Positions 1,416-24,616 of a DNA stretch of 32,792 nucleotides are shown here, one piece after another. Below the pieces are notes generated by a model, which saw only the letters and a list, made by a program, of their open reading frames with translations, searched no databases and was not told the DNA's origin. The translations under genes and the position numbers were made by a program. Origin of the DNA: Dehalococcoidia bacterium (GTDB lineage: Bacteria; Chloroflexota; Dehalococcoidia; Lucifugimonadales; UBA3495); assembly GCA_022821365.1 (NCBI GenBank), contig JAJEDS010000150.1, positions 1 to 32,792 on the forward strand, read 5' to 3'. Every line of letters starts with the position of its first letter. Position 1 is the stretch's first letter.

Positions 1416-1616
1416 CTAAGCAGAATGTTGCGAAAGAAGTGCCCTGACGGCGGATACCAACTCATTGGGAATTAGCATGACCGTATGATTCTTATCTTCG
1501 AACGCTGCCTCATCTTCTGCTATGGCCTCATCCTCAGATTGCGATTCGTAATGCTCTATTACACGGCGAACTCTTTCCTCATCCCAACCGGGTGGAAAGT
1601 ATCCTGAGCTTGTCAT
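1416..1616 (-). CDS. Small acidic protein, putative antitoxin partner of the DUF4258-type gene
   Basis: A 66-residue protein, very rich in Glu/Asp in its middle (EHYESQSEDEAIAEDEAAFE), ending in a short helix (NELVSAVRALLSQ). The start is set by an AAGGAGGA ribosome site at 1621-1628 just ahead of the ATG at 1616; an in-frame start further upstream (1634) would place that site inside the gene. The ATG overlaps the stop of the preceding gene by one base (TGATG), so the pair is translationally coupled. Size, acidity and coupling fit an antitoxin, but the order here is toxin-like gene first. I recognise no DNA-binding motif. The function is inferred from context. Confidence 0.6.
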   Translation of the reverse strand: MTSSGYFPPGWDEERVRRVIEHYESQSEDEAIAEDEAAFEDKNHTVMLIPNELVSAVRALLSQHSA

Positions 1617-1897
1617 CAGTTCCTCCTTTCCCACCTTAAGCGGAAGGCTCTCAACGCTCTGCCCGTCAGATCGTATGCTGTGATGACGAAGAAACTATCG
1701 GGCGCGGGGTCTCGCGAATATATTACTCGCAGGTACCGCCCATCCCCGGTGATTCCGGTAGCAACACACGCCCCATCTCTTCCCGGTCGATCTTCCCCAG
1801 GTGAGATCAACACTTGCTCAACTTCCTGCTCAGAAACCCCGTGACCATATATGTGCGGGAGATTTGTTACCGGGTCAACGTAGTAGCGAAAATTCAT
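1616..1897 (-). CDS. DUF4258-type small protein, putative toxin
   Basis: A 93-residue protein that starts MNFRYYVDP, has a HIYGHGVSEQEVEQVL helix, a YLRVIYSRDP strand and ends in FRLRWERR. This pattern (N-terminal His-containing 'H-x-x-x-H-G-V-S-x-x-E-V' helix, then a beta sheet with a basic end) resembles DUF4258/BrnT-like proteins, a group with an RNase-like RelE-type fold. It lies 64 nt behind sufU and is coupled to the acidic gene downstream. A TATTAT (1926-1921, minus) 23 nt upstream could give it its own short-leader promoter. It is visibly less GC-rich than the suf genes, which fits acquisition. Toxicity is an inference. Confidence 0.6.
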   Translation of the reverse strand: MNFRYYVDPVTNLPHIYGHGVSEQEVEQVLISPGEDRPGRDGACVATGITGDGRYLRVIYSRDPAPDSFFVITAYDLTGRALRAFRLRWERRN

Positions 1898-12804: not shown

Positions 12805-13623
12805 ATGATTGACAAGCTAAAACAGTTGCCAGGCGACGACCGTTTGGAAGTTTTCCCTGACCTGAATCCCAGGCCAATCTTTCAAACGCCGGCGTACCTT
12901 GCCGACGGGAGCGACCGGTTGGAGGTGTTCCCTGACTTTGGACCCAGGAACGACATGCAGAATCCCATCCATCTTCACCTCGACGGCCATCAGACCATGT
13001 TGGTCCGGCACTTGGGGCAGCGGGAAACGACTATGGTGCTGTCGGAAGTACCCATATTCTGGTACTCCAGCCGCAACGCCCGCATACCCGACCTTACCAT
13101 AGCCTTCAACGTAAACCCTGCCGCCATAATAGACCGCAACGGCTATTCCTTAGAAGAAAACGGGAAGCCGCCGGAATTTGTGCTGGAAGTGGCGTCGCCA
13201 ACCACGGCTCGTAACGACTATACGCGCAAGCGGGAAGACTACGCGGTCTTTGGTATTCCCGAATACTGGCGGTTCGACCCTACGGGAGGACGCCGGTACG
13301 ACATGCCTTTGGCCGGAGACCGTCTGGTGGACGGAGTTTACCAGCCTATTGAGTTAGTGCGGATAGACGAAGAGCGGCTGTGGGGCCACAGCGCCATGCT
13401 GAACCTGGACGTATGCTGGGAGTACGGTCGCCTGCGCTGGTGGGACCCGGCAACGCAGCAATACCTGCAGACCCACGAGGAAGAAGCCGAGGCACGGGCA
13501 GCCGCAGAGCAGACCCGTTTGGCCGAAGCGTCCGCCCGCCTGGCCGCGGAAGCAGACCGGGATGCGGCCCTGACCCGCGTCCGTGAACTGGAAGAAGAAC
13601 TGCGCCGCCGGGGAGGCACATAG
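12805..13623 (+). CDS. Uma2-family (DUF820) PD-(D/E)XK nuclease-like protein with C-terminal coiled coil
   Basis: A 272-residue protein. The Uma2 core is seen as ARIPDLTIAF, then PPEFVLEVASPTT, RKREDYAVFGIPEYW: the spaced Asp, Glu-x-x and Lys of a PD-(D/E)XK fold, and the G-[IV]-x-EYW pattern. Residues about 220-270 form an Ala/Glu/Arg-rich coiled coil. The N-terminus contains an in-frame duplication: DRLEVFPD occurs twice, 25 codons apart. GGGAGG at 12798-12803 supports the ATG. Family members are abundant in cyanobacteria and Chloroflexota, usually of unknown role. It lies between topA and the xer gene, in the same direction. Confidence 0.85.
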   Translation: MIDKLKQLPGDDRLEVFPDLNPRPIFQTPAYLADGSDRLEVFPDFGPRNDMQNPIHLHLDGHQTMLVRHLGQRETTMVLSEVPIFWYSSRNARIPDLTIAFNVNPAAIIDRNGYSLEENGKPPEFVLEVASPTTARNDYTRKREDYAVFGIPEYWRFDPTGGRRYDMPLAGDRLVDGVYQPIELVRIDEERLWGHSAMLNLDVCWEYGRLRWWDPATQQYLQTHEEEAEARAAAEQTRLAEASARLAAEADRDAALTRVRELEEELRRRGGT

Positions 13624-17084: not shown

Positions 17085-17453
17085 TTAAACGCCATTCTCG
17101 TTGGGCATCATTTCCAGCAGGCGGATGACAAAACGTGGCACAATCCTCCTGGCCCTCAACAGTTCATGGTCTTCCATGAAATCGTGGTAATAGTTGGCGT
17201 GGCATTTTTCGGCTGCTCCGAAGCCTGGCTCCAGGGTCAAATCGCCCGACTCTTCGGCCAGTCGCTCTACTGCTTGCCCCATGGCCCGGTGGCTTCCAAA
17301 ATTCCAGCCACGTACCTGGGCGTTGGCCATAATGGCGTGAGTGGCTGCGCCCCATAATTTCTCCGAGCCTTGCAGGATATCCCCTGCCTCAAACTCGGCT
17401 TCGGCCTTTTCCAGGAACTCATGGGCCGTCTGGACATGTTCCTGTATCAGCAT
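17085..17453 (-). CDS. PaREP1/HEPN-like small helical protein
   Basis: A 122-residue, almost wholly helical protein. AHEFLEKAEAEFEAGDILQGSEKLWGAATHAI and the later CHANYYHDFMEDHEL block match PaREP1-like proteins, a branch related to HEPN helical domains. No Rx4-6H RNase motif is clearly seen. It has no partner gene next to it: it is convergent with the VWA gene and divergent from aroQ. A GAAGGA site about ten bases before the ATG supports the start. HEPN-related proteins often act in stress or defence; no specific role can be given. Confidence 0.6.
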   Translation of the reverse strand: MLIQEHVQTAHEFLEKAEAEFEAGDILQGSEKLWGAATHAIMANAQVRGWNFGSHRAMGQAVERLAEESGDLTLEPGFGAAEKCHANYYHDFMEDHELLRARRIVPRFVIRLLEMMPNENGV

Positions 17454-17652: not shown

Positions 17653-18102
17653 ATGCCTCGAATACTCGTTCTCAACGGCCCCAACATCAACGTCCTCGGA
17701 CGTCGCAACCCCGCCATATACGGCACCTTAACCCTGGACGAAATAAATCGGCTCATTTCCGAGCAGGCCCAAGCGCTCGGGATGGACGTCGCCTTCTTCC
17801 AGTCCAATCACGAAGGCGCCCTCATCGACCGTATCCAGGAAAGCTGGGGCAACATCGACGGCATCGTAATCAACCCCGGGGCCCTGACCCATTACGGCTA
17901 CTCCCTGAAGGACGCCCTCATCGACGCCGTGGTGCCCGTCATCGAGGTACACCTGGGCAACATTCACGCCCGCGAAGAGTGGCGGCGGCACTCGGTGGTG
18001 GCCGATATCGCCCGCGGTCAAATTGCGGGCTTCGGCTGGAGAAGCTATACTTCAGCTATAGAAATCATGGCTGGCATCATCGAAGAAGAGAGCGCGCCGT
18101 GA
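17653..18102 (+). CDS. aroQ: Type II 3-dehydroquinate dehydratase
   Basis: A 149-residue enzyme of the shikimate pathway that turns 3-dehydroquinate into 3-dehydroshikimate. The sequence opens with ILVLNGPNINVLGRR, followed by the catalytic Tyr23 (NPAIYG), INPGALTHYGYS, and the active-site loop EVHLGNIHAREEWRR. Length is that of the type II, dodecameric family. A TATACT at 17536-17541 may be the -10 of its promoter, with a leader of about 105 nt; no good -35 is seen. It shares four bases (GTGA) with the following peptidase gene, an aroQ-pepQ pairing often seen in bacteria. No other shikimate gene is in the window. Confidence 0.95.
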   Translation: MPRILVLNGPNINVLGRRNPAIYGTLTLDEINRLISEQAQALGMDVAFFQSNHEGALIDRIQESWGNIDGIVINPGALTHYGYSLKDALIDAVVPVIEVHLGNIHAREEWRRHSVVADIARGQIAGFGWRSYTSAIEIMAGIIEEESAP

Positions 18103-19166
18103 AGGAACGCGTAACCCGACTGGTCGCCCACTTGCCGGAGAAGGAACTGGACGCCATCCTGATTTCCTCCCCCAATAACCGCCGCTACCTGTCGGGATTC
18201 ACCGGTTCCGCCGGTTACCTGTTTATCACCCCCCAGCGGCAGGTGCTCTTCACCGACTCCCGCTACACTGAGCAGGCGGGCAACGAATCCCCCCAATTCG
18301 AGGTTATCCGGACCGAGCCCGGCCTGGGCTGGCTGACGGACGCCCTGAAGGACACGGGTGTCAGGCGCGTCGGTTTTGAGAGCGACGTCATGACCGTCGC
18401 CTCCTACAACCGGCTGCTTGATGCCATCAAGGAAGAAGAAGGCCTGGGCGGTACCTCCCTCATCGCCACCTTCGGCATCACCGACGAGTTGCGGGCCTTC
18501 AAAGACCAGGACGAACTGGCCCAGCTTCAAAAGGCCATTGATGCCTCCGACCGTGCCATGGAGACCGTCTGCCCCGCTATCCAGGCGGGTATGACCGAAA
18601 GGGAAGTAGCCTGGCGCATGGAAGCAGCCATGCGGGAGTTCGGCGCCGACAACATCAGCTTTGGTACGATCGTGGCCGCCGGTCCCAACGGCGCCATGGC
18701 CCACCATCGGGCCGATGATACGGTAATCAGGGCCGGCGAACCCATTGTCATCGACATGGGCGCCCGGGTTAACGGCTATTGCAGTGACATAACCCGCACC
18801 GTGGTGGTGGGCGAACCCGACGAGATGTTCCACAAGATTTACAACATTGTGCTGGGCGCCCAGCTTGCCGCCATCAACACGGTGCGCCCCGGCCTGACCG
18901 GCGAGGAGTGCGACGCTCTGTCCCGGGACATCATCGCCGATGCCGGTTACGGCGACAACTTCGGCCACAGCCTGGGCCACGGCGTCGGCCTGGCCGTCCA
19001 CGAAAGCCCCCGCGTCGGCCCCCGCGCCGAAAACGTCCTCCGGCCCAACATGGTCTTCACCATCGAACCCGGCATCTACCTGAGCGGCTGGGGCGGTGTC
19101 CGAATTGAAGACATAGTAATCCTGGGCGAGGACGGGGCCACGGCGTTGAGCAAGGCGGGGAAGTAG
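18099..19166 (+). CDS. M24-family aminopeptidase P / Xaa-Pro dipeptidase
   Basis: A 355-residue metallopeptidase. The N-terminal creatinase-like domain (about 1-125; SSPNNRRYLSGFTGSAGY) is followed by the pita-bread catalytic domain with ligands in VIDMGARVNGYCSDITRT (two Asp), HSLGHGVGLAVHE (His), TIEPGIYL (Glu) and GGVRIEDIV (Glu). It cleaves peptides with proline at the second position and uses two metal ions. The GTG at 18099 overlaps the aroQ stop (GTGA), and gives the family-typical start KERVTRLVAHL; the frame is open farther upstream only inside aroQ. The gene name could be pepP or pepQ; I leave it open. Confidence 0.92.
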   Translation: MKERVTRLVAHLPEKELDAILISSPNNRRYLSGFTGSAGYLFITPQRQVLFTDSRYTEQAGNESPQFEVIRTEPGLGWLTDALKDTGVRRVGFESDVMTVASYNRLLDAIKEEEGLGGTSLIATFGITDELRAFKDQDELAQLQKAIDASDRAMETVCPAIQAGMTEREVAWRMEAAMREFGADNISFGTIVAAGPNGAMAHHRADDTVIRAGEPIVIDMGARVNGYCSDITRTVVVGEPDEMFHKIYNIVLGAQLAAINTVRPGLTGEECDALSRDIIADAGYGDNFGHSLGHGVGLAVHESPRVGPRAENVLRPNMVFTIEPGIYLSGWGGVRIEDIVILGEDGATALSKAGK

Positions 19167-19192: not shown

Positions 19193-19528
19193 ATGTACAG
19201 CAGGGAAGTGGCGGACAAAGTAGGTAAACTGGTAGGTGATTCGCTGCGGGAACGGTTTAAGGACGAGTTTGTCTTTGATCCGATTGTAGTTGAGCCTGCC
19301 ATTGACCACGACGGCGAAGAATACCTGGACATTTTCATAATTTACGAGGGGGACTATAAAAAGCTTGATCCTGGTTGGAGTTCCGGGTTGCCAATGTTGC
19401 TGCGGCCCGACCTGCTCGATTTGGGCGTAACTAGCGTCCCCTATCACTCCTTCGTGCCTAAGAGAGATTGGAAAGAGGTTTTCAAAGAGAAGCATCCTAA
19501 GGCGTATGGACCCTCAAGATCTCATTAG
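19193..19528 (+). CDS. Unknown small protein paired with a HEPN gene
   Basis: A 111-residue protein I do not recognise. It has an N-terminal amphipathic helix (REVADKVGKLVGDSLRERF), a two-strand segment VVEPAIDHDGEEYLDIFIIYEGD and a Pro/Leu-rich middle (GLPMLLRPDLLDLGV). Its place before a HEPN gene is that of a MNT-type nucleotidyltransferase antitoxin, but the GSxxxxxxD motif is absent; the acidic DHDGEEYLD strand might be a much degraded counterpart. The ATG at 19193 has AAGGAG five bases ahead. It starts 26 bases after the M24 peptidase and overlaps the HEPN gene by 23 bases. Less GC-rich than its neighbours. Confidence 0.65.
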   Translation: MYSREVADKVGKLVGDSLRERFKDEFVFDPIVVEPAIDHDGEEYLDIFIIYEGDYKKLDPGWSSGLPMLLRPDLLDLGVTSVPYHSFVPKRDWKEVFKEKHPKAYGPSRSH

Positions 19529-19976
19529 GATTGCCCGTGAACTTGCGGAGTCACCTTCGGCGACCGAGTCAACTGGAATACGGCAAACCTATCTCTGCCG
19601 TGCCATCAGCACTGCCTATTATGCTTTGTTCCACGCCCTGGCGCACAGCTGTGCTGATACATTGGCTGGTAGGAACAGGGCACATCCAAGTTGGGGGCAA
19701 GCATACCGGGCACTGGAACATAATCTCGCAAGAAGACAGTGCGAAAAAGTTTCCAACATACCGGAATATGGGCCGGGAGTAGTTCGCTTTGCAGATAAAT
19801 TTGTTGTGGCTCAAGGGCTTCGCCATACAGCTGATTACGATCCGTCAGCCACATTCTCCCAGCTTCAAGCGTTGACTCTGATTGACGAAATCGAAAATGC
19901 TATTGCAGAGTTTAACTCGATTGACCAGGACCAACGCCGTGCCTTCGCCATTCACGTCCTGTTCCGGACGCGGTAG
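19506..19976 (+). CDS. HEPN-domain protein (UPF0332-like)
   Basis: A 156-residue helical protein. CRAISTAYYALFHALAH (residues 31-47) is the typical first HEPN helix, and LRHTADYDPS (105-114) is the late helix motif of the UPF0332-like branch, with Arg106, His107 and Asp110. Family knowledge: HEPN proteins with Rx4-6H are RNases in TA, Abi and CRISPR systems. Here the spacing is degenerate, so catalytic activity is doubtful. The ATG lies within the end of the preceding gene, without a strong ribosome site, so translation is likely coupled. Together they look like a TA-type pair. Confidence 0.75.
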   Translation: MDPQDLIRIARELAESPSATESTGIRQTYLCRAISTAYYALFHALAHSCADTLAGRNRAHPSWGQAYRALEHNLARRQCEKVSNIPEYGPGVVRFADKFVVAQGLRHTADYDPSATFSQLQALTLIDEIENAIAEFNSIDQDQRRAFAIHVLFRTR

Positions 19977-19994
19977 CAGCAAGGAGTAGGTGAT

Positions 19995-20225
19995 ATGCGG
20001 CCAGAGCCAACCTGGGAAGAACTTGAGGCAGAGTACGAATTCATCTGGCCGTGCCACTATTGCGGCAGCAAACTTGATCCCAGGTATGATTACTTCTGTC
20101 CCAATTGCGAAATGCAAAGCTGCGACAACTGCAATCAGGCCTGCAATGAGTGTGATGAAATTACCTGTAGCCGGTGCATACTTCAGCACATGAGTACCGC
20201 CCACCCCGACAGCGAAGAATGGTAG
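19995..20225 (+). CDS. Cysteine-rich zinc-binding-like small protein
   Basis: A 76-residue protein with ten cysteines in five CxxC pairs (20/23, 35/38, 43/46, 50/53, 58/61) and His65 and His70 near the end. The pattern suits two or three zinc sites of the RING/B-box/zinc-ribbon kind. The first 18 residues are acidic and aromatic. An AGGAG eight bases before the ATG supports the start. It lies 18 bases after the HEPN gene and its stop overlaps the ATG of the next gene (ATGGTAG). I recognise no family; the role may be nucleic-acid or protein binding. Confidence 0.7.
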   Translation: MRPEPTWEELEAEYEFIWPCHYCGSKLDPRYDYFCPNCEMQSCDNCNQACNECDEITCSRCILQHMSTAHPDSEEW

Positions 20226-20764
20226 CTGATAGCAATCCACAGGAACTTGCCCAAACCGGCCGGAAGCAGATTGAGGATGCCATACTTCGCTTGTTAGATG
20301 CTAACCCTCAAGGTCTGCGGAATGTTGAAATTGCCCGCGCCCTGGGTCTGAGCTTTGAGTTCGGCGGCAAATACAAGAACCACGTAACCCACGGCATGCT
20401 GGGAAGCCTGGAATCCCGGGGCCTGGTCAGCAGGGACGAGAATAGCAAGCTGTTTTTCAGCAGGAACGGAGATACTACTGCTATAGAAACGGCACAAGCC
20501 GGACTGAAGCAAATCGAAGAAGGTGTCTTACGGCTCCTTGAAGCTCATCCTGACGGATTGAGAAATGTGGATATAGCCCGAAGCCTGGGACTAACCTCAG
20601 ATTTCCGGGGTTCCTACCGGAACTATCTGACATTTACCATCTTGACCAGCCTGACGGCTCAAGGCAGAATTAAACGGGATTCGACCACCAGGTTGTATAC
20701 GCTTCCAAATCAGGTTCCAACCTTTGATCAGCCTGTCAAGGCGACACATCGGAGCAAAACATGA
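20219..20764 (+). CDS. Tandem winged-helix protein
   Basis: A 181-residue protein made of two copies of the same domain, residues about 15-82 and 95-162. Each opens with G-[RL]-KQIE, has LRLL-[DE]-A-x-P-x-GLRNV-[ED]-IAR-x-LGL as the DNA-binding helices, and ends in a two-strand wing. Copies of this winged helix occur as DNA-recognition parts of some restriction enzymes, but no nuclease domain is attached here. The ATG at 20219 overlaps the stop of the cysteine-rich gene; the frame is open to 20174 only inside that gene. Its TGA overlaps the efp ATG (ATGA). It may be the regulator of this block or a DNA-binding subunit. Confidence 0.7.
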   Translation: MVADSNPQELAQTGRKQIEDAILRLLDANPQGLRNVEIARALGLSFEFGGKYKNHVTHGMLGSLESRGLVSRDENSKLFFSRNGDTTAIETAQAGLKQIEEGVLRLLEAHPDGLRNVDIARSLGLTSDFRGSYRNYLTFTILTSLTAQGRIKRDSTTRLYTLPNQVPTFDQPVKATHRSKT

Positions 20765-21327
20765 GCATTAACTTCAGCGACCTCAGCCGCAACATGGTCA
20801 TCGAGCTGGACGGCCAGCCCTGGCAGGTGATGGATTACGAGCGGCACAAGATGCAGCAGCGGGCCCCCGTCACCCGCATCAAGATGAAAAACCTGCTGTC
20901 CGGCGCCGTGGTCGAGCGCACTTTCCAGCGCTACGATACCGATTTCACCGTGGCCGAGATCGACAACCGGGAGACCCAGTACCTCTATACCGACGGCAAC
21001 TATTTCTACTTCCTGGACCAGGAGACCTTCGACCAATACGAGCTGACCCGGGAAACGCTGGGCGACACCCTCAACTACCTGAAAGAGAACATGATCGCCG
21101 AAATGGTGTTCTACAAGGGTTCACCCATCAACCTGAACCTGCCCACCCACGTTGAACTGGCAGTTGCGGACACCCCTCCGGCCTTTCGCGGCGACACCGC
21201 CCAGGGCGGCAACAAGCCGGCCACCCTGGAGACCGGCCTCCGCATCAACGTCCCCATGTTCATCACCCCCGGCACCATCGTGAAGGTGGATACCCGCACC
21301 GGCCAGTACACGGAGCGGGTGAGCTAG
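20761..21327 (+). CDS. efp: Translation elongation factor P
   Basis: A 188-residue protein with the three EF-P domains: KOW-like (1-65), OB (66-128) and C-terminal OB-like (129-188), the latter with GDTAQGGNKPATLETGLRINVP and the ending KVDTRTGQYTERV. EF-P rescues ribosomes stalled at proline runs. The tip loop of domain I reads HKMQQRAPVTR where E. coli has VKPGKGQAFAR; without a gap the modified Lys34 corresponds to Gln33, so the known lysine modification is not possible in that form. No modification gene (epmA/B, earP) is in the window. The ATG overlaps the stop of the winged-helix gene, so efp is read from the accessory block or from a promoter within it. Confidence 0.94.
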   Translation: MSINFSDLSRNMVIELDGQPWQVMDYERHKMQQRAPVTRIKMKNLLSGAVVERTFQRYDTDFTVAEIDNRETQYLYTDGNYFYFLDQETFDQYELTRETLGDTLNYLKENMIAEMVFYKGSPINLNLPTHVELAVADTPPAFRGDTAQGGNKPATLETGLRINVPMFITPGTIVKVDTRTGQYTERVS

Positions 21328-24025: not shown

Positions 24026-24313
24026 CTATGCAGTAATCCGTAGCCGCATTCCCAGGGCCCGGGTAATCTGCATAACCGTGGCGAAAGAAGGATTGCCGTT
24101 TTCCGACAATGCCTTGTAAAGCCCTTCGCGGGTCATCCCGATTTCACGCGCCAGTTGGCTCATATTTTGGGACCTTGCAATGTCATTCAGGGCAGCACGA
24201 ATCAGGCTTCCGTCGCCCGGATCCTCTTCGGCGCAGGCTTCCAGGTACAGTAGCACGTCTTCCTTGCTGGTCAGGTGGTCTGCCGCGTCCCACCGGGTAA
24301 AGGTCTCACTCAT
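24026..24313 (-). CDS. HigA-type XRE antitoxin
   Basis: A 95-residue protein. The C-terminal half is an XRE helix-turn-helix (MSQLAREIGMTREGLYKALSENGNP, then SFATVMQITRALGM), and the N-terminus an acidic helix (SKEDVLLYLEACAEEDPGDG), the layout of 'addiction module antidote' proteins. It lies 24 bases downstream of the toxin gene, the toxin-first order of HigBA modules. It would neutralise the toxin and repress the pair; a palindrome ahead of the toxin gene is the likely operator. Convergent with the formyltransferase gene. Confidence 0.88.
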   Translation of the reverse strand: MSETFTRWDAADHLTSKEDVLLYLEACAEEDPGDGSLIRAALNDIARSQNMSQLAREIGMTREGLYKALSENGNPSFATVMQITRALGMRLRITA

Positions 24314-24337
24314 ACATTAGCTCCAGTCTGACGCCAA

Positions 24338-24616
24338 TCACCTGGCCCGTTCAATGTCCCGCCTCTGGCTTCCCTTGTCTCCACCACAAAGCAGTACCAC
24401 AAGTGTTGCCCCTTCGCGCAGATAATAGAGCCGGTAACCCGGGCCGTAGTGGATGCGCATTTCGAATATGCCGTCACTCACGTAGTTGGAGTCGCCAAAG
24501 TTTCCCAAAGACAGGCTTCTCAAGCGTGCGTTAATCCGTGCTGTCGCCCGCCGGTCCCGCAGACTGCCGACCCACCTTTTGAAAGTGGAGCTTTCGACGA
24601 TATCAATTTCACGCAT
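24338..24616 (-). CDS. RelE/HigB-type toxin
   Basis: A 92-residue basic protein of the RelE/ParE fold, 'addiction module killer' branch: FKRWVGSLRDRRATARINARLRSL, then GNFGDSNYVSDGIFEMRIHYGPGYRLYYLREG and LLCGGDKGSQRRDI at the end. The features KGSQ and the Arg/Tyr pairs in the central strands are those of ribosome-dependent mRNA-cutting toxins of this branch. The first gene of the pair. No ribosome site is visible before its ATG; see the promoter entry. Confidence 0.88.
   Translation of the reverse strand: MREIDIVESSTFKRWVGSLRDRRATARINARLRSLSLGNFGDSNYVSDGIFEMRIHYGPGYRLYYLREGATLVVLLCGGDKGSQRRDIERAR

Follow-up and report, generated by a model that had tools for sequence, protein, structure and literature searches.

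In the gap between pepP and efp, the window (the whole stretch of 32,792 nt that we analysed) carries four small genes, here called A, B, C and D (Table 1). It stems from an 83% complete assembly of a Dehalococcoidia/SAR202-type bacterium (G000). The coordinates confirm the view of the first-pass annotation that these genes overlap or nearly touch: all four are read from the forward strand, B and C are separated by 18 nt, C and D overlap by 7 nt, and D indeed shares ATGA with efp, an overlap of 4 nt. The reading frame of A starts with ATG, and a TTG stands one codon upstream. Equally borne out is the lower GC content of the block, which amounts to 0.49-0.52 in A to D versus 0.59 in aroQ, 0.63 in pepP, 0.61 in efp and 0.68 in xseA (GC3: 0.49-0.62 versus 0.75-0.89 in the neighbours), or 51% for the block versus 61% for the whole window. 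Homologues of the block genes are under purifying selection, with dN/dS values of 0.03-0.30 where dS was measurable, and A, B, C and D are therefore all real coding genes. A scan for promoters and terminators gave no excess over shuffled sequence.

Table 1. Genes and sequence features at the pepP-efp gap (positions refer to the window).
Feature	Position	Strand	Remarks
pepP-like aminopeptidase	18060..19166	+	Host gene upstream of the insertion site; insert starts 26 nt past its stop codon
Gene A, 111 aa	19193..19528	+	Predicted antitoxin, 5' member of A-B; ATG start
Gene B, 156 aa	19506..19976	+	HEPN-T (AF0298/UPF0332-type), predicted RNase toxin
A/B frame overlap, 23 nt	19506..19528	+	Putative translational coupling; overlap or close touch conserved
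B His72 codon	19719..19721	+	Invariant; predicted alternative catalytic His, within the helix 2/helix 3 insert
B motif R106-H-T-A-D110-Y111-D-P113	19821..19844	+	End of long helix 90-111; R, D and Y invariant
Gene C, 76 aa	19995..20225	+	Cys-rich, zinc-binding-type; first gene of C-D
Gene D, 181 aa	20219..20764	+	Two winged-helix (HTH_IclR-like) repeats; second gene of C-D
efp (elongation factor P)	20761..21327	+	Host gene downstream of the insertion site

Elsewhere in the window, a PaREP1/PaREP8-family gene (PF05942, HEPN-related, E 2e-12; 17085-17453, minus strand) lies antisense upstream of aroQ; it is conserved in the congeners G302 and G304, and a related gene is found directly before efp in the relative G307. 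Downstream of xseA (24026-24616, minus strand) we noted a pair resembling classical type II toxin-antitoxin (TA) systems, in which a dnstrm_HI1420-type antidote (PF21716, E 1.1e-22) is joined by a Gp49/DUF891-like toxin that narrowly misses the cut-off. A DUF4258 protein with a small overlapping neighbour (1416-1897, minus strand; E 2.4e-5) might be a further TA pair, and a Uma2-family putative endonuclease (PF05685, E 8e-16) is encoded at 12805-13623 on the plus strand; homologues of the latter lie close to several of the A-B or C-D loci.

Our structural model of B (AlphaFold2, 28 window and locus sequences; pLDDT 92.8) is an all-helical HEPN fold. Its best counterpart in the PDB, as judged by Foldseek, is 2hsb (AF_0298), found with a probability of 1.00 and TM values of 0.42/0.51, at an E-value of only 0.043; further HEPN chains (3o10, 4nqf, 7ae6, 5yep), among them sacsin and HepT, follow lower in the list. 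Searching the PDB with a profile of 40 B sequences again retrieved 2hsb (E 3.2e-5), together with 9xbd (1.3e-4) and 9xbc, both named HEPN domain-containing proteins and matched with E-values ranging from 1e-4 to 8e-4; these matches are aligned at the motifs SxAYYAxFHA and R..(A/S)DY. With PF05168 only weak matches were obtained (best E 1.1e-4), which do not reach the Pfam cut-off, and a single-sequence query with B returned nothing from Pfam, NCBIfam, PADLOC or the PDB. The entries 9xbd and 9xbc, for which our literature search found no paper, differ from each other at the DY motif (SDYD versus SDFD), which looks like a deliberate mutation of the tyrosine.

Eleven residues of B are invariant in our wide sequence set (S35, A40, H43, G55, Y67, R68, H72, Q103, R106, D110 and Y111), and H72, present in 100% of 89 pairs, opens a helix (72-82) that is placed between helices 23-54 and 90-111. 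The canonical Rx4-6H motif of HEPN proteins is absent, as R106 is followed by D110/Y111, with D in place of the histidine. This is compatible with the AF0298 subfamily of HEPN-T proteins, since the loss of this histidine through replacement by D is typical of that type, in which an alternative RNase site may be completed by a second conserved histidine, carried by the insert that separates helices 2 and 3 (Anantharaman et al. 2013, PMC3710099). R106, D110 and H72 of B occupy the positions given there for the alternative site. We hence predict from sequence and model that B is an AF0298-type HEPN-T RNase toxin relying on R106, D110, Y111 and the alternative H72; the RNase activity of the AF0298-type HEPN is itself a prediction (PMC3710099).

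Gene A belongs to an undescribed partner family, and the A-B pair has no family of its own in Pfam, NCBIfam or PADLOC. None of the 34 Chloroflexota A sequences matched a Pfam family, none of the 39 in the wide set a Pfam or NCBIfam family, and a single-sequence query found no counterpart in Pfam, NCBIfam or PADLOC. The Pfam searches gave no HTH, RHH or AbrB match either, so that A has no recognisable DNA-binding domain; such a domain is common, although not obligatory, in type II antitoxins. The AlphaFold2 model of A has the topology alpha-beta-beta-alpha-beta-alpha (pLDDT 90.3), and its best match among small domains is the KH-type protein RbfA (TM 0.51/0.59, E 0.0067), followed by PrgK domain 2; the KH domain of S3 is found in the same list. 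We treat this likeness to RbfA/KH folds as a lead only. Acyl-CoA ligases, which also came up, were discarded as homologues: merely a C-terminal subdomain has a similar topology, and the TM to the target is low. Likewise rejected was an assignment as nucleotidyltransferase. No A matched an NTP_transf family (the closest is DUF294, at E 0.04 in two of the 34 sequences), no GSx..D.D motif was found (A1, A5), and no MNT occurs among the best 50 PDB fold matches. A lacks the nucleotidyltransferase signature, and A-B is therefore not a HEPN-MNT system.

The pairing of A with B is not a peculiarity of this genome. With only the B alignment as a seed, we scanned 84,980 species and uncovered 78 loci in the Chloroflexota, Alpha- and Gammaproteobacteria, Latescibacterota, Gemmatimonadota, Spirochaetota and Rhodothermota. 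The scan comprised 93 B genes, of which 90 have A directly upstream, two have it directly downstream and one lies at a contig edge, so that A is the 5' gene in 90 of the 92 testable pairs, with a median spacing of -8 nt (89 pairs). The swapped order, B then A, was seen in two Pseudomonadales assemblies (L130:5007-5751, L139:5001-5748). When scan and relatives are taken together, A was detected next to 138 of 142 distinct full-length B; of the other four, one borders a contig end, one has an A candidate of marginal significance (E 0.03), and two, which are related to each other, lack A. A and B also diverge in a correlated manner (Mantel r 0.61, and 0.77 within the Chloroflexota; p 0.001). Some relatives carry about ten copies of the pair, partly in tandem. 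Within the Chloroflexota the family is patchy, because in evenly drawn sets of 300 and then 400 genomes from this phylum we recovered B only from G000 and as one fragment. In the records that we inspected both genes are annotated as 'hypothetical protein', and our search of the open-access literature returned no description of the A-B pair, which may nevertheless have been described elsewhere.

The A-B pair is mobile. Thirty plasmid records carry B; most of them are rhizobial, and 20 are conjugative. On the one rhizobial plasmid that we inspected, A-B stands beside repABC, and on an Acidisoma plasmid it adjoins genes for replication, ParA, an integrase and RelE. The IMG/VR contig IMGVR_UViG_3300035684_000078 carries the pair between the genes for the large terminase subunit and the portal protein (L168:5223-5970). 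INPHARED phages gave no match, and D was not found in viral contigs. A tblastn search with A found nothing on plasmids, which B as a query did match, because A diverges fast.

The way in which the pair decays is asymmetric. Our census of 79 relatives comprises 85 intact B genes, 83 of them with A. In about 15 cases the neighbour of A is a B that is truncated or interrupted by a stop codon, and in about 11 cases A has no B at all; the converse, a damaged A beside an intact B, was not found in this census, because three suspect A genes with an apparent internal TGA proved to hold only their own, natural C-terminal stop codon. Among the 142 B, the putative toxin gene lacks its partner only in the two related cases mentioned above (L191/L215 and L192/L216), which are homologous loci in G334 and G338 (L215:2517-3023, L216:2352-2954). 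Both have lost H72, D110 and Y111, three of the four predicted active-site residues, and S35 as well; YRALEH has become YTALGG or HMALGG, and RHxADYDP has changed to QRxLAEEDP. Such a loss is expected if a B with an intact site were harmful without A. The association between absence of A and loss of the active site has a Fisher p of 3e-4 when two events are counted, which probably are one. Directly upstream of one of these genes (L216), we noted by eye a PIN-like ORF of the VapC type. In TA systems the antitoxin gene is usually the 5' one, and MNT is likewise 5' in MNT-HEPN (PMC3710099). A-B has this order too and shares with type II-like systems its small, co-directional and overlapping genes as well as its mobile, patchy and multi-copy occurrence; A would thus be the antitoxin of B.

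The downstream genes C and D have a different history. Across the loci that we fetched by tblastn and profile searches, A is followed by B nearly everywhere, and D has C directly upstream at 14 of its 18 sites, so that the arrangement in the window is not due to chance; the two pairs stand in different places, except at the efp site of three congeners. Among the 79 relatives, A occurs in 22 genomes, D in 17 and both in 13, but the two adjoin each other in just three genomes (G000, G302 and G304), always next to efp. Outside this genus, D is present in only five of the 45 genomes carrying A-B and is not linked to A-B there. A-B and C-D are consequently separate pairs that are joined only at efp, in three of the four readable congeners.

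C has ten invariant residues (C20, C23, C35, C38, C43, C50, C53, C58, C61 and H65), and this Cys/His set suggests that it probably has two or more zinc sites; its similarities to B-box and zinc-ribbon domains are weak and below the cut-offs. D consists of two winged-helix repeats (HTH_IclR, E 2.8e-11), and its homologues in genus g180 have a single repeat. The repeats resemble the winged helix of IclR-type regulators (PF09339), from which D differs by the tandem arrangement, by having no matched IclR effector domain and by its Cys-rich partner C. C-D is probably a small regulator pair, in which D would bind DNA, and what links it to A-B is their position. On a Hydrogenimonas plasmid, genes for an ATP-binding protein and an HNH endonuclease adjoin one for a winged helix resembling D (L169:2104-2358), a possible defence locus.

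These data also bear on the efp site itself. G301 and G307 carry A-B before efp, without C-D, and a second, distinct A-B pair after xseA (L055:7831-8599 and L054:7231-8002), which shows that both sides of efp-xseA accept insertions. In G307 a tandem duplication of A-B and a PaREP1-type HEPN gene precede efp. Given this varied content, and since no A, B, C or D was found near efp at loci fetched from genomes other than G307 and those of this genus, the pepP-efp gap is a lineage-specific site of insertion and turnover. A quick tree with two groups of efp-site B had pointed to independent insertions of A-B, but a careful tree unites those of G000, G301, G302, G304 and G307 in one clade (95/83), in which G000 and G301 are sisters; the three congeners that bear C-D are rejected as a clade (AU p 3e-5). 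Judging from this tree, A-B probably already stood at efp when this genus and G307 split from their common ancestor; the arrival or loss of C-D was probably a separate matter. Divergence between G000 and G301 at this site looks vertical. Between G000 and G304, dS values are 0.68 for efp and 0.72 for pepP, and 1.95, 3.0 and 1.35 for A, B and C, and this excess over the host genes suggests an exchange of alleles by recombination.

The first-pass annotation had regarded the four genes as one compact TA or defence-like module. Such a unit is present, with the HEPN protein as its likely effector, but it does not extend to four genes, and the DNA- and zinc-binding parts ascribed to it belong to C-D. 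The four families are mostly found apart as a block and together as the halves A-B and C-D, and we found no case in which all four, A to D, stand together away from efp, be it in the fetched loci, in the 45 A-B genomes or at the D sites. A single functional unit, in which D and C would regulate A-B, could be read from the co-directional, overlapping and equally GC-poor genes and from their identical order in G302 and G304. Yet at efp in G301 and G307, and at about 100 sites elsewhere, A-B stands without C-D; C-D in turn has no A-B at any of its other sites, and the C-D-bearing congeners do not form a clade, so that gain or loss of C-D was independent of A-B. We regard this improbable reading as already largely refuted. 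Even less credible is a service to EF-P, for instance a tuning of the translation of efp mRNA. D does overlap efp in G000 and G302, and A-B has been kept beside it in four congeners and G307, but the efp loci fetched from other relatives have no such genes, and most A-B pairs by far, like every other C-D pair, lie away from efp. The second A-B pairs after xseA are what an insertion site would predict. A general tie of the block to EF-P and exonuclease VII, as had been proposed, is thus not upheld.

In our opinion, A-B is best explained as a mobile two-gene TA-like module with C-D as a separate neighbouring pair, a reading to which we assign a probability of about 0.7. A would be translated first and coupled to B through the overlapping frames; it would then bind B and keep it inactive, and once free, B would arrest growth by cutting or blocking RNA. 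The zinc-protein/winged-helix pair C-D, probably a regulator, would merely adjoin A-B at efp in three congeners. Several points speak against a TA role: the two B without A are homologous and may reflect one evolutionary event; where B was lost and A has stayed, B could have been of no use instead of doing harm; many type II antitoxins possess a DNA-binding domain, which A lacks; and B departs from the canonical Rx4-6H, with a fold E-value of 0.043. That all four readable congeners, and G307 as well, have kept A-B at efp would equally agree with a resident role of some use.

Tentatively, A-B might serve anti-phage abortive infection, with a phage cue freeing B from A; the mobility and variability of the pair would then reflect defence instead of addiction. 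Its position inside a phage structural module, the rapid divergence and turnover at efp, a weak match of three members to PADLOC HEPN_IX and the enrichment of defence genes in sponge symbionts (PMC5649159) agree with this; congener G302 is itself sponge-derived (SAR202 bin22 (MPMM), Aplysina aerophoba bins). However, A-B was not seen inside any recognised defence system, the window proteins match no defence model, and mechanistically this would be the same pair with a different trigger. We consider it unlikely that A-B is a non-toxic RNA-processing complex, in which a KH-like A binds RNA, B cuts or binds it, and B disappears along with A since it is useless alone. The fold matches of A to RbfA and S3 and the co-divergence of both proteins would suit such a complex, but a patchy, multi-copy occurrence that extends to plasmids and phage is unusual for housekeeping functions, A is kept without B, and the only B without A have lost their active site. 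More speculative than the TA-like module as such, and in our eyes rather doubtful, is that A-B represents a new type of HEPN TA system, an AF0298-type RNase (H72/R106/D110/Y111) neutralised by a KH/RbfA-like domain, which could act via the RNA substrate or an RNA-HEPN complex and not by AMPylation or simple sequestration. We know of no antitoxin of such a fold.

Among known systems, HEPN-MNT (HepT-MntA, type VII) resembles A-B in its two overlapping genes, with the HEPN gene 3' and a small partner 5'. It differs in that A has neither the nucleotidyltransferase signature nor a Pfam NTP_transf match and B has no RX4HXY; any neutralisation by A can therefore not be the known AMPylation by MNT. 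RnlA-RnlB and LsoA-LsoB likewise consist of a HEPN RNase restrained by a small unrelated protein (PMC3710099), but B is a single HEPN-T domain of 156 aa without any RnlA-type match in our searches, its partner comes from another family, and the two genes are arranged in a different order. The partners and toxicity of AF0298-type HEPN-T proteins are mostly uncharacterised, and A-B offers a candidate TA or abortive-infection family that spans six or more phyla, occurs on plasmids and in a phage, reaches about ten copies in some sponge-symbiont genomes and is missing from Pfam, NCBIfam and PADLOC; its natural variants without A and without active site point out the key residues of B. It is these HEPN-T proteins (AF0298/UPF0332, related to PF05168; 2hsb) that come closest to B. 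B has a longer C-terminus (helices 119-137 and 141-152, with a conserved R156), and its partner A is not listed for HEPN-T in Table 1 of PMC3710099; common to both are SxAYYAxFHA in helix 2, R..(A/S)DY at the end of the long helix, the invariant histidine in the inter-helix insert and the best fold match.
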